DNA from: an uncultured Clostridia bacterium
Lineage (GTDB): Bacteria; Bacillota; Clostridia; Christensenellales; Borkfalkiaceae
Reading direction: 5' to 3'
DNA length: 32,632 nucleotides
NCBI GenBank assembly: GCA_947630245.1
Contig: CANRGR010000011.1
Span: 1-32,632 of the forward strand
The notes under the pieces are model-generated. The model had not been told where the DNA came from. It worked only from the letters and a program-made list of their open reading frames with translations, and did not search any database. Made by a program: the position numbers and the translations under genes. Within the stretch, counting starts at the first letter, position 1; every line of letters starts with the position of its first letter. Below are positions 13,156 through 27,460 of this stretch, one piece after another.

Positions 13156-13193
13156 AAAAAACGGGACCGATTCAAACCGTCGTCCCGTTTTTT
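13156..13193. terminator. Bidirectional rho-independent terminator between ylmC and the DnaD-like gene
   Basis: A 12-base arm AAAAAACGGGAC (13156-13167) pairs perfectly with 13182-13193, with a 14-base loop. The T6 run on the plus strand and the A7 run at 13155-13161 (T7 on the minus strand) allow termination in both directions, which fits the two convergent genes. Confidence 0.9.
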
Positions 13194-13197
13194 GTCG

Positions 13198-13225
13198 TTT
13201 TGCATAGTACTATGTCAGACATAAT
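13198..13225 (-). repeat. Near-palindromic repeat element, copy B
   Basis: The sequence TTTTGCATAGTA followed by CTATGTCAGACATAAT is an inverted match (25 of 28 bases) to copy A at 1651-1678. The core TATGTC-A-GACATA (13211-13223) is a perfect dyad about one central base. It lies five bases after the bidirectional terminator and nine bases beyond the stop codon of the minus-strand DnaD-like gene. Copies A and B bracket about 11.5 kb in inverted orientation. Confidence 0.7.
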
Positions 13226-13234
13226 AGCCGACTT

Positions 13235-14935
13235 TTATGAGCGATAACAGTCGCAAGCGCGCCCGTCGGGCAGAAATCCCGTGTCCGAACATTTCGGGCA
13301 GACATACTTGGGCGTGAAGTCCTCCTCCGTCAGATTCAGCCGTTTCATGGCGGATTCCCGCCTCAGGCGATATTGTTCGATCTCTTCCCGAATGGGCGCG
13401 ACCTGCGCGGGGGAAAAGACTTCCGCCTTTGCGAGTTCGATCTCCCGTTTTTTGAGTTCGCGGTCGGAGAGGCGGAACTCCTCGTCCTCTTCCGCCTTTT
13501 TTCGCGCCTGTTCCGCGGCGGACGCCGCTCTTTGCCGAAGGACGGCATAGTGGTGTTCGCGGTCGGCGCGCAAATCCGCTGCGACGGCGGCTTCGCTCCG
13601 GAAGTCGGGTTTTGCGCCCGTCTTTTCGGGGATAGCGTCGGGGGAGAAGATTTCCGTGCGCTTCCAACCGGAGAGAAGTTTATTCATGTAGGCGAGGGGG
13701 GCGGACGCGCCCGCGCTCCGCTTTGCCGCTTCGAGAATCATTTCATCGGAGAAATTCCAGCTCTTCCACGCGCGGATCATTCCGAGCGCGCTCTGCGTCT
13801 TTTTGACGACTCCGCAGACGGATTGGACGGATTGCAGCAGCCGAAGCAGTTTTTCGGTCGCCGCGCAGTAGGCGCGGATTCCCGTGGCGTCCACGATCCC
13901 GTCGGCGTAGAGGGAATCGAGCAGGGCGTCTAACTCTTCGAATCCGTAGCCGAGCTTGAACGCGAGTCCCGAGAGCAGGAGGAGACTTTCGCCGTCGTAG
14001 CCGTGTTCGAGCCATTTTTCCGCATAGGTTTCGATGTATGCGCGGGGATTCTGGATTCTGACGCCGAGTTTCCGCGCGATTTTATAGACGAGGTCGGAGC
14101 ATTCCGCCCGCCGCGCGAGGTATTCCTCCGCCTCCGCACGGGTGTGCAGATCGCGCTCGTTCAGCTCCGAGACGAGAAGATCAAGCCCGGACATGCTCCC
14201 TTTTTTGAGCGCGGATGCCGCGGCGAGCAGCGCGCCCGGTTCCATGCCTTCCGCATGCCATTTTTCGAGAAGTTCGTAGTCCGGTTCGGCGGGTTTTTTA
14301 TAGATTCCGAGGAGCGAAAACAGTTTCCCGAGTTCCCGCTCGTTCTTGTTGAAGTCGGCAAGGTCGCGTTCGACCTGTTCGCAGGTAAATTTTTGCTCCT
14401 TGCAGAGTTTTTTCGCCTTGTTGAGCATGTGCGCCGAGGAGAGCTTTTCGCCGTCCTTCCCCGCGCAGTATTCCGCGATGAGCAGAAACGCCTGCTGTTC
14501 CATCGGGTTGTTTTCGAGAAATTCGAGAATGCGGCTCATCTCATAGGGCTTGAAATCCGCGTTGGCGCGTTGGAGAATCTTGTAAAATTCGCGGTTGAAG
14601 TCCGAATACTTCTCCGGGCGGATCGGCTTGGGCTTGCCGACGGCGGCGTTCACGGGGAGATATTCGACATAGAGCGGATCGCGCGAGAGAATGTGGACAA
14701 GATCGCACTCCTCCCAGAATCCGTAGATTTCGAGAAGCCGCTCATAGGGGATTTTTAACAGCTTTCCCATGCTGCGCCCGTCGAATTCCTCTTTGCAGGA
14801 GCAGAGATAGAGCCCGTACAGATAGGCGCGCACGGCGTCCCCGTCCGCCTGCGGGAGATATTTCGTGATGAACTGATTCTCCACGCTTGTGAACATATTC
14901 GAAGTAAAATCTTTGGAAAAGACCGAGAAGGACAT
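13235..14935 (-). CDS. DnaD/DnaB-family replication protein fused to a DnaI-like N-terminal zinc region, no AAA+ domain
   Basis: This 566-residue protein appears modular. Residues 1-95 form a winged-helix-like domain. A helical middle follows, then a DnaB_2/DnaD motif at about 389-430 ('WNFSDEMILEAAKRSAG', 'YMNKLLSGWK'). Residues about 459-566 form a charged coiled coil ending in 'YVCPKCSDTGF' and 'CDCYRS' (C546, C549, C561, C563). This tail resembles the N-terminal helicase-binding zinc region of clostridial DnaI/DnaC loaders, encoded directly after the dnaD-like gene in e.g. C. difficile. Here the chain stops right after the zinc motif; the AAA+ ATPase that should follow is absent. The start at 14935 has AGAGGAA upstream. 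DnaD and DnaI load the replicative helicase at origins; the dnaB helicase gene is at 26039-27460. Confidence 0.8.
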   Translation of the reverse strand: MSFSVFSKDFTSNMFTSVENQFITKYLPQADGDAVRAYLYGLYLCSCKEEFDGRSMGKLLKIPYERLLEIYGFWEECDLVHILSRDPLYVEYLPVNAAVGKPKPIRPEKYSDFNREFYKILQRANADFKPYEMSRILEFLENNPMEQQAFLLIAEYCAGKDGEKLSSAHMLNKAKKLCKEQKFTCEQVERDLADFNKNERELGKLFSLLGIYKKPAEPDYELLEKWHAEGMEPGALLAAASALKKGSMSGLDLLVSELNERDLHTRAEAEEYLARRAECSDLVYKIARKLGVRIQNPRAYIETYAEKWLEHGYDGESLLLLSGLAFKLGYGFEELDALLDSLYADGIVDATGIRAYCAATEKLLRLLQSVQSVCGVVKKTQSALGMIRAWKSWNFSDEMILEAAKRSAGASAPLAYMNKLLSGWKRTEIFSPDAIPEKTGAKPDFRSEAAVAADLRADREHHYAVLRQRAASAAEQARKKAEEDEEFRLSDRELKKREIELAKAEVFSPAQVAPIREEIEQYRLRRESAMKRLNLTEEDFTPKYVCPKCSDTGFLPDGRACDCYRS

Positions 14936-14983: not shown

Positions 14984-15012
14984 AGTATAGCATAACTTCC
15001 GCGCAAATGCAA
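14984..15012 (-). promoter_or_regulatory. Sigma-A-type promoter for the DnaD-like gene
   Basis: On the minus strand, TTGCAT (15012-15007), 17 bases and TATACT (14989-14984) lie about 50 bases upstream of the start codon at 14935. The first 13 bases, TTGCATTTGCGCG, are identical to the promoter at 4170. Confidence 0.7.
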
Positions 15013-15054
15013 AGAATTTTTCGCGCGAAACGGAAATCCGCTTTTTTTCAGACG

Positions 15055-26038: not shown

Positions 26039-27460
26039 ATGCCAAACCAGATGCCACACAATTTAGACGCGGAATCCGCCCTGCTCGGCTGTATCCTCAT
26101 CGACGGGGATATCCAGTCCGAGGCGCTCGAATCCCTCAAAGAAGAGGATTTCTATCAGGAATCCCACCGCGAGATTCTTGCCGCGATGAAGGCGGTCTAC
26201 GGGAGCAGGAAGCCCGTGGACGTCGTCACGCTCACCGACCGTCTCGACCGCGACGGGAAACTCGACCGCGCGGGCGGGCTCGCCTACATCACCGAACTCG
26301 CGCAGGTCGTTCCTTCCGCCGCAAATTATAAACAATATCTTGAAATTATCCGCCGTGATTCGGTCAACCGTGCCCTCATCCGCGCCGCAAAGGACATCAT
26401 CGAGAACAGCATGAAGGGGGAGGAGGAGCGCGACGCGCTCGCCTTTGCCGAGAAGCAGGTCTATGACCTTTCGAAGCGGCAGGACGGATCGAATCTCTCG
26501 GGTTTGAAGGACGGGGAAGTCATTCAGGAAGTCATCGGGAAATTCGAGAGCATCCAGTCCGATCCCAACGCCTTCCGCGGCGTGGAGACGGGATTCAAAC
26601 ATCTCGACCGCATCACGAACGGATTGCAGAAATCCGATCTCATCGTCATCGCCGCGCGTCCCGGCATGGGAAAGACGTCCCTTGCAATGAATATCGTCGA
26701 GCACGCCTGTCTCAAAAAGGACGGCGTTGCGGCGGTGTTCTCTCTCGAAATGCCGCGCGTCCAGATTGTGCAGAGGCTCCTCTGTTCGTACGCGGGCGTG
26801 AGCATGGAGAAGGCGCTTGCGGGCAAGCTCGTGCAGAAGGATTGGAAAAATCTCATGCTCGCGAGCGACCGTATGCAGAAGAGCAGGATCTTTATCGACG
26901 ATTCTTCCCGCATAACCGCGGCGGAGATTCTTTCGAAGTGCCGTCGGCTCCGCAGTGCGGAGGGGCGGCTGGATCTCGTGATGATCGACTATATCCAGCT
27001 CATGGGCGGCGACGCAAAATACGCGGGCGCGGAAAACAGACAGCAGGAAGTTGCGAGCATCACGCGCGATCTCAAAATCATGGCGAAGGAGCTCGACGTC
27101 CCCGTGATTGCGCTCTCGCAGCTGAGGCGGATCCAGACGAAGGAGGCGCAGCTCTCCGACCTGAGGGAGTCCGGCGCGATCGAACAGGACGCGGATATCG
27201 TCATGTTCATCAACCGTCCCGACGTCTCCGCGACCCCCGAGGAACTCGCAAAGGGGAATATCGTGAAGGGCGCGGCGGAGCTCGTCATCGCAAAGCACAG
27301 AAACGGCTCGCTCGGGCGCATTCAGCTCCGCTTTATCGGCGAGAGCACGAAGTTCATCGACGTGGACGATCAGGGCGCGCCCGCCGAGGAGCCGCAGTAC
27401 GGGAAGAAACAGCCCGAGTTTGACGCGGAGGACGGCTCCGACGGGCTTCCCTTCGATTGA
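26039..27460 (+). CDS. dnaB: Replicative DNA helicase DnaB
   Basis: DnaB is the hexameric 5'-3' helicase at the replication fork. The 473-residue protein has the N-terminal helical domain ('PHNLDAESALLGCIL') and a RecA-type ATPase with Walker A 'AARPGMGKTS' and Walker B 'LVMIDYIQLM'; the arginine-finger region is 'IAKHRNGSLG'. The start has AAGGAG at 26028-26033. The C-terminal tail is acidic and ends 'DGLPFD', close to the SSB tail motif DxLPF. The upstream 62-base gap holds a GC-rich, possibly structured leader. tsaC follows with one base between. No complete DnaI-type loader is seen in the window; a DnaD/DnaI-like fusion lacking the ATPase lies at 13235-14935. Confidence 0.96.
   Translation: MPNQMPHNLDAESALLGCILIDGDIQSEALESLKEEDFYQESHREILAAMKAVYGSRKPVDVVTLTDRLDRDGKLDRAGGLAYITELAQVVPSAANYKQYLEIIRRDSVNRALIRAAKDIIENSMKGEEERDALAFAEKQVYDLSKRQDGSNLSGLKDGEVIQEVIGKFESIQSDPNAFRGVETGFKHLDRITNGLQKSDLIVIAARPGMGKTSLAMNIVEHACLKKDGVAAVFSLEMPRVQIVQRLLCSYAGVSMEKALAGKLVQKDWKNLMLASDRMQKSRIFIDDSSRITAAEILSKCRRLRSAEGRLDLVMIDYIQLMGGDAKYAGAENRQQEVASITRDLKIMAKELDVPVIALSQLRRIQTKEAQLSDLRESGAIEQDADIVMFINRPDVSATPEELAKGNIVKGAAELVIAKHRNGSLGRIQLRFIGESTKFIDVDDQGAPAEEPQYGKKQPEFDAEDGSDGLPFD

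Follow-up and report, generated by a model that had tools for sequence, protein, structure and literature searches.

The window considered here, which is the whole stretch of 32,632 nucleotides that was analysed, carries on its minus strand a fused gene that forms one open reading frame of 566 aa, with an ATG at 14935 and a stop codon at 13235-13237. The encoded protein is of the DnaD type over most of its length and ends in a module resembling the N-terminus of a helicase loader (Table 1). An earlier note, made from the sequence alone, had described a single frame running from a DnaD-family protein into a loader-like N-terminus and then stopping, and its frame, coordinates and stop were confirmed.

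Table 1. Features of the fused gene, its surroundings and the related genes discussed in the text
Feature	Position	Strand	Basis
Fused gene, DnaD-family with C-terminal loader-type module, no AAA+ domain	13235..14935	-	566 aa; one frame in 90/151 family genomes
Residues 1-95, winged-helix-like N-terminal domain	14651..14935	-	AlphaFold2 model, helices and two strands, block pLDDT 53-89
Residues 105-434, helical DnaD/DnaB_2-type repeats	13634..14623	-	Pfam PF07261, two stretches, best 382-434
Residues 435-455, flexible linker at fusion point	13571..13633	-	pLDDT <50 at 438-445
Residues 456-566, loader N-terminal module, three long helices and cysteine knuckle	13238..13570	-	NF005304 positions 12-119; AlphaFold2; alignment
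Presumed zinc motif C546-x2-C549 ... C561-x-C563	13247..13300	-	Invariant cysteines
Promoter-like site 5' of fused gene	14984..15013	-	Consensus match 9/12; no proof of function
Replicative helicase dnaB, 473 aa, presumed partner, 11 kb from fused gene	26039..27460	+	PF03796 E 1.2e-91
G39P-type genes behind dnaD, four g8 species	L064:3089-3688, L065:5216-5803, L066:632-1216, L067:1331-1933		Pfam PF11417

The Pfam family DnaB_2 (PF07261), which represents the DnaD-type C-terminal domain, is met in two stretches of the fused protein (E 2e-10; 40.6 bits against a cut-off of 22), and three to four repeated helix groups were discerned by eye within residues 105-434 of the AlphaFold2 model. Pfam DnaD_N gave no match in the fused protein, while NCBIfam DnaD_dom (TIGR01446) was unreported for the window protein and above its cut-off in five other fusions scanned. 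Foldseek lists one DnaD model for the predicted structure of the fused protein, weakly (E 0.65, probability 0.84).

Residues 459-566 had been likened to loader N-termini, and residues 462-565 indeed match NCBIfam NF005304 (PRK06835, 330 positions) over model positions 12-119 only (E 3.2e-10). The score of 39.6 bits lies below the whole-protein cut-off of 215, as is expected for a match that covers part of the family only. The fused protein stops three residues past the second cysteine pair, and the AAA+ part is therefore absent; no AAA+ family (Walker A/B ATPase) was found in the protein by the Pfam or NCBIfam scan, in keeping with the view of the earlier note that the ATPase is missing, and DciA (PF05258) was absent from the Pfam scan. 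Modelled alone with AlphaFold2, the module forms three long helices plus a cysteine knuckle (mean pLDDT 93). To judge from the profile match, the C-terminal ~105 residues are the N-terminus of a PRK06835-type, i.e. clostridial DnaC-type, loader. The description of this region as a 'DnaI zinc region' thus stands as far as a loader N-terminus with a CxxC...CxC motif (NF005304) is concerned; likeness to the DnaI of Bacillus was not found, either by sequence search of solved structures or among the listed Foldseek and VIA-align results. A DnaI model matches the AAA+ part only, in the unfused DnaC of a sister genus. Foldseek gave nothing at E≤0.001 for the module or the whole model, sequence searches of solved structures with the module gave no useful or significant match, and the VIA-align results for the module, apparently common helical bundles with no DnaI entry, were set aside as uninformative.

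A near-palindromic repeat, TAGTACTATGTCAGACATAATA, lies near the stop of the fused gene (window 13205-13226); the earlier note had placed a repeat copy nine bases past that stop. It is one of 22 copies (≤3 mismatches) dispersed in the genome of the window (G000), 21 of them on the plus strand of their contigs, against a control of 0; a repeat so dispersed is uninformative on truncation. A 63-nt inverted pair, 73% complementary, is formed by 1652-1714 with 13162-13224.

The hosts of the gene are uncultured bacteria of the gut. The closest named records belong to uncultured Clostridia and to Candidatus Gallimonas (Clostridia incertae sedis at NCBI), with the sample names chicken, 'Lapin' and sheep-colon. 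In the best 80 of the 190 loci found, the query was covered from residue 1 to at least residue 563 in every case. A search of 5.8 billion proteins returned 589 matches at E≤1e-5 among 7,996 scored candidates; the best 120 of the 589 cover ≥98% of the query and carry few names, 'DnaD domain protein' and 'hypothetical'.

In 39/39 full-length rows of the alignment, no change affects the four cysteines, D551 or G553, and the matching columns are invariant in 27/27 module rows. Counted from the CxC of the motif, the stop follows after 3-11 residues in 79 of the 80 named loci, the longest matching frame of the 80th (L252) being 303 aa long and without the motif. Selection was examined by the Nei-Gojobori method, using our own script, in 80 sequences of the genus (the 79 named loci and the window). 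The DnaD part gave a median dN/dS of 0.234, the linker one of 0.377 and the module one of 0.285, based on 775, 629 and 753 pairs, respectively, of low synonymous divergence from a total of 3160, the pairs being non-independent. Mean identity was 0.659 in the DnaD part, 0.553 in the module and 0.514 in the linker, the lowest of the three regions. The module is under purifying selection, and a truncation artefact or pseudogene was rejected on the conserved motif and this selection taken together.

The distribution of the fusion was surveyed in 151 draft genomes of the family, representing 18 genera. DnaD and the module lie in a single frame of 564-717 codons in 90 of them, the whole-protein and module profiles being in agreement; this number and the DnaC presence given below are hand counts from the profile-search tables. 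The fusion was identified in 18/19 genomes of the genus of the window (g1), 16/18 of g3, 2/2 of g4, 4/5 of g5, 17/18 of g7, 14/18 of g8, 16/17 of g10, 2/2 of g14 and 1/9 of g9. The fused gene is split in two pieces in G132 (g3), and G061, G071, G106, G127 and G150 are without a complete fusion gene.

In the non-fusion genera, a DnaD of ~470 aa adjoins an intact DnaC of ~310 aa, as the succession of dnaD and loader gene ascribed to clostridia had predicted. The spacing, with starts taken from the longest frames, is 1-16 bp in 19 of the 24 loci in which both frames were read and 42 bp in one, the genes overlapping in the other four. In a sister genus, the unfused DnaC covers positions 4-322 of NF005304. 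At L079:2387-4714 (G023), dnaD and dnaC share one reading frame, interrupted by only one stop codon within the match; this arrangement comes near to a full-length fusion.

A DnaC match at E≤1e-27, a threshold chosen after inspecting the table, was found in 0/99 genomes of the fusion genera (best 7.2e-24) as against 40/52 of the others. The remaining 12 of the 52 comprise the fused G098, three genomes with weaker matches (G074, G087, G091) and eight that are 56-90% complete. At least four genomes of fusion genera (G066, G103, G114, G124) contain IstB-like AAA+ frames, 248-298 aa long, that do not carry the module. The genome of the window is 94% complete in 99 contigs, and an AAA+ search of it (PF01695) gave three frames only, of 451, 803 and 939 aa, of which the 451-aa frame, the best match and the one scanned further, is DnaA (TIGR00362, 453 bits). 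A loader hidden elsewhere in this genome was rejected on these results, and the separate full-length loader whose presence would have told against the earlier reading was not found. The helicase domain DnaB_C was complete in 15/15 genomes examined.

The earlier note had left a choice between a deletion by which the dnaD and dnaI genes were fused and truncated and a mode of loading without an ATPase, and had considered the fusion functional. Loading in an 'ATPase-free, DciA-like' manner is kept as a probable reading in its ATPase-free sense only, as argued below; DciA itself (PF05258) had no match in any of the 151 family genomes, in a search in which 7/14 controls were positive. That the fusion is functional is borne out by its retention in 90 of the 151 genomes and by purifying selection; the promoter-like site, which had also been adduced, is no evidence of function.

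The fusion seems to have arisen several times independently, as suggested by two trees obtained by quick searches with support by SH-aLRT only. The RpoB tree, built from 40 genomes, joins the fusion genera g4, g7 and g14 to the DnaC genus g6 (SH-aLRT 99), while g1, g3, g5, g8 and g10 lie apart from these on one branch (100) with the DnaC genera g11 and g12. The well-supported branches force at least three changes; the number of events in the large fusion clade is unsure owing to the weak support for the position of g11 and g12. At least five changes are required by the tree built from the DnaD part of 51 genes, which places the fused gene of G098, a single g9 assembly with 7% contamination, among g9 genes from DnaC genomes (100). 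The same tree nests two fused genes of a further family (f28), those of G269 and G220, within two species that possess DnaC; these two genomes (100 and 99% complete) show no DnaC, and eight congeners have it. The cut is similar each time, five other fusions matching NF005304 from positions 3-7 to 121-137. A single origin followed by regain of DnaC appears a poor fit to the trees, in view of the fusions inside the g9 clade and the f28 genus.

Module matches were also obtained in 295 of 347 genomes of the order and in 361 of 391 genomes of the class, where, the fusions already named apart, most of the modules listed belong to frames of DnaC length; rare fusions at these levels may escape notice, since weak matches were unlisted and some long frames unread. 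Three frames of 406-410 aa from the order-level search represent DnaC with upstream read-in, and hence are no fusions.

Four species of g8 (G007, G082, G090, G144) have a DnaD without the module and no DnaC match beyond DnaA-length frames, and the module profile search found no module match anywhere in their genomes. Directly behind their dnaD lies a gene of ~195 codons, overlapping it by 1-4 bases in three species and separated from it by two bases in the fourth. Pfam names these genes Inhibitor_G39P, 'Loader and inhibitor of phage G40P' (PF11417), with scores of 37.3, 24.5 and 23.5 bits in three of the four (cut-off 22); the fourth scores 15.4 bits and is 69% identical to one over the cut-off. 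The NCBIfam scan of the four proteins gave nothing. Some of their relatives are named 'replicative helicase loader/inhibitor', one of them in Candidatus Coproplasma, and in the 151 family genomes PF11417 was met in three only, all of this g8 group. The four species form one clade of g8 in both the RpoB and the DnaD trees (99 and 100). In the RpoB tree, this clade lies nested inside a group of fusion species (97), so that the G39P relative probably took the place of the fused module here; it may represent another type of phage loader that the host has made its own.

The module also occurs without DnaD, on at least 21 further proteins (a hand count of the matches listed) in 19 genomes, all in fusion genera. 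The corresponding proportions, 19/99 genomes of fusion genera and 0/52 of the others, give a one-sided Fisher value of 1.7e-4 with kinship ignored; a second module match in G113, of a DnaC genus, proved to be the first part of its own dnaC, which a contig end cuts off, and was discarded. Third matches counted for G128 and G129 lie outside the 21. With E≤0.01 as the limit, 17 of the 21 match PHROG families for replication initiation or for DnaD-like loaders (best 8.2e-39, weakest 0.0086, several being weak). L200, L201, L203 and L205 had no initiator match in the PHROG scan of all 21, and the notion that all of these proteins are initiators was dropped for that reason. The N-terminal part of one of the four, L205:6280-7299 (G027), matches PHROG families of unknown function (best 4.9e-24). 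L207:6195-7265 (G128) is an initiator-like protein in which the helical part of the module is kept and the cysteines are lost.

L209:8741-9826 (G126) encodes a phage-type initiator consisting of a Lin1244 N-terminus and the module, among SSB, YqaJ and RecT genes; by gene content these surroundings are a phage replication region. A module-bearing relative that is 91% identical, the module included, lies on a 67-kb viral contig of IMG/VR. None of 34 deposited phage records covers 80% of the initiator, and the best 15 of the 34 cover ≤42% of it, in the N-terminal part only. The module thus seems to have been grafted onto unrelated initiators within the fusion clade. Prophage-like stretches with a gene of the Zot family near the module-bearing protein were seen at L199, L206, L208 and L210; three of the four Zot-family genes tested are over the Pfam cut-off, that of L210 being below it. 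The Zot family comprises morphogenesis ATPases of filamentous phages. Filamentous phages are thought to use rolling-circle initiators, and the combination of Zot with module-bearing initiators would be unusual if these stretches are filamentous phages. The L208 initiator had no relative in the viral scan.

These observations make it probable, in our judgement, that the fused gene encodes a composite initiation protein, in which DnaD carries the helicase-gripping module of a former loader and delivers DnaB without a loader ATPase. In the ancestor, dnaD and dnaC would have been neighbours or overlapping, and loss of the AAA+ part together with the intervening stop would have joined the docking domain to DnaD. 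DnaA and single-stranded DNA would draw the DnaD part to the melted origin, as they do DnaD in Bacillus, where the order is DnaA, DnaD, DnaB, DnaI and helicase and DnaD contacts both DnaA and single-stranded DNA (passages of PMC13326638). The C-terminal module, as the N-terminal helicase grip of the former DnaC-type loader, would bring DnaB to the origin, and oligomers of DnaD, by offering the helicase ring more than one docking domain, would stand in for the AAA+ assembly. In Bacillus, the AAA+ part of DnaI is bound by the co-loader DnaB (same passages), and since this is the part of DnaI that the co-loader holds, the fusion would make the contact needless. According to excerpts of the respective papers, the N-terminal domain of DnaI holds zinc and binds the helicase (PMC3791466; PMC3401641), DnaC/I loaders bind the helicase through their N-terminal part (PMC4887207) and DnaC of E. 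coli latches onto the helicase via its helicase-binding domain, thereby promoting ring opening (PMC8213410). If the PRK06835 N-terminus acts like that of DnaI and DnaC, the helicase grip would be on DnaD directly. As the module has no significant match among solved structures, its putative docking role rests on descent from the PRK06835 loader; it is supported by the presence of the module on other proteins and by the G39P relative in its place.

On a wider scale, and with somewhat less assurance, we favour the view that DnaC lost its AAA+ part on several independent occasions, the docking domain remaining on DnaD each time, and that this domain was once replaced by a phage G39P-type loader. 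Phages and mobile replicons of the loaderless cells would then have to bring the docking module themselves, grafted onto unrelated initiators; the proposed reason why mobile replicons would tend to carry their own module on their initiators is that the fusion cells have no free loader. Three elements of this picture are inferred: that the module binds DnaB, that loading proceeds with no ATPase of a loader, and why the mobile copies exist.

The loss of the AAA+ domain should carry a cost, as the loader is an AAA+ protein in both E. coli and Bacillus, and DnaA or an unrecognised ATPase could stand in for it. It is conceivable, if unlikely, that the module merely docks the helicase at DnaD and that ring opening and loading are carried out by another ATPase, for instance DnaA or an AAA+ protein that escaped recognition. 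The genome of the window does contain DnaA, AAA+ frames of DnaA length (~450 aa) recur across the family genomes and ring opening through DnaA-helicase contacts is discussed as possible in a portion of PMC3401641; however, no loader-like AAA+ protein common to the fusion genera was seen among the frames listed, DnaC being absent from them at the above threshold and IstB-like frames being listed for the four genomes named. Considerably less probable is a helicase-binding brake or store, in which case the helicase would assemble on DNA by itself, the module serving only to hold DnaB in place or in an inactive state. Some bacteria are tabulated as loading DnaB without a helicase loader (in the same portion of PMC3401641) and the G39P family is named both loader and inhibitor, but the module resides on mostly initiator-like proteins, 17 of the at least 21 having replication-initiation family matches, which fits delivery better than storage. 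There is very little to commend a functionless, decaying leftover of a truncated loader, to which the lower identity and slightly higher dN/dS of the module than of the DnaD part might point, against the invariant cysteines, the median dN/dS of 0.285, the repeated origin with the same cut and the module on other replication proteins. Equally improbable is an assembly or binning artefact with the true dnaC in an unassembled part, for although every genome used is a draft, that of the window included, DnaC at E≤1e-27 is missing from all 99 genomes, many of them 95-99% complete, and also from G269 and G220.

Delivery of DnaB by a composite DnaD protein may be compared with the known systems. The clostridial DnaC-type AAA+ loader PRK06835 shares the N-terminal CxxC...CxC module and is encoded directly downstream of dnaD in sister genera; the fused protein differs from it in having no AAA+ ATPase domain and in bearing the module C-terminally on the DnaD polypeptide. 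With the DnaD, DnaB (co-loader) and DnaI proteins of Bacillus it probably has in common the route from DnaA through DnaD to the helicase, and the N-terminus of DnaI contains zinc and binds the helicase, as is presumed for the module (for DnaI, parts of PMC3791466 and PMC13326638); the fusion, unlike the Bacillus chain, unites several steps in one polypeptide and has no AAA+ part. DciA is likewise a loader without an AAA+ domain, its sequence being unrelated to the module. DciA sets a precedent for helicase loading without a loader ATPase, and neither lambda P nor G39P is known to have ATPase activity. DnaC, lambda P and DciA bind the helicase at its LH-DH site. DciA and DnaC use the same helicase site, and a serine/glycine marker is said to separate DciA-type from DnaC/I-type helicases (excerpts of PMC9912922). 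G39P of SPP1 is a phage helicase loader that recruits the helicase after an origin-bound organiser (a section of PMC5615212); its relative (PF11417) takes the place of the module in the sister subclade, as a separate ~195-aa protein in which no similarity to the module was seen. Lambda P and DopE are phage-derived loaders, lambda P being listed among AAA+ loaders and DopE as a class in bacteria without AAA+ loaders in passages of PMC13326638. Brezellec et al. reported, in part of PMC5109545, that phage dnaC/dnaI was domesticated at least seven times and that a few species lack both dnaC/dnaI and dciA. Among the titles and abstract openings listed by full-text literature searches, which take in a minority of subscription papers, none described a fusion of DnaD with a loader, loaders of this group that lack the AAA+ part, or a resident loader that had lost this part repeatedly. 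Loaders without an ATPase are already known, and the route through fusion with DnaD appears to be new.

What DnaC and DnaI need their ATPase for, given that DciA manages with none, is an open question of replication. Evolution has seemingly carried out the deletion of the ATPase repeatedly in the chromosome, with close ATPase-keeping relatives as controls. If the proposed reading is true, docking at the origin, rather than ATP use by the loader, would be the indispensable step, and the fusion would offer a compact system for testing docking against ATP use. The three alternatives found beside dnaD, namely DnaC, the fused module and the G39P relative, would show the turnover of helicase loaders at short evolutionary range.
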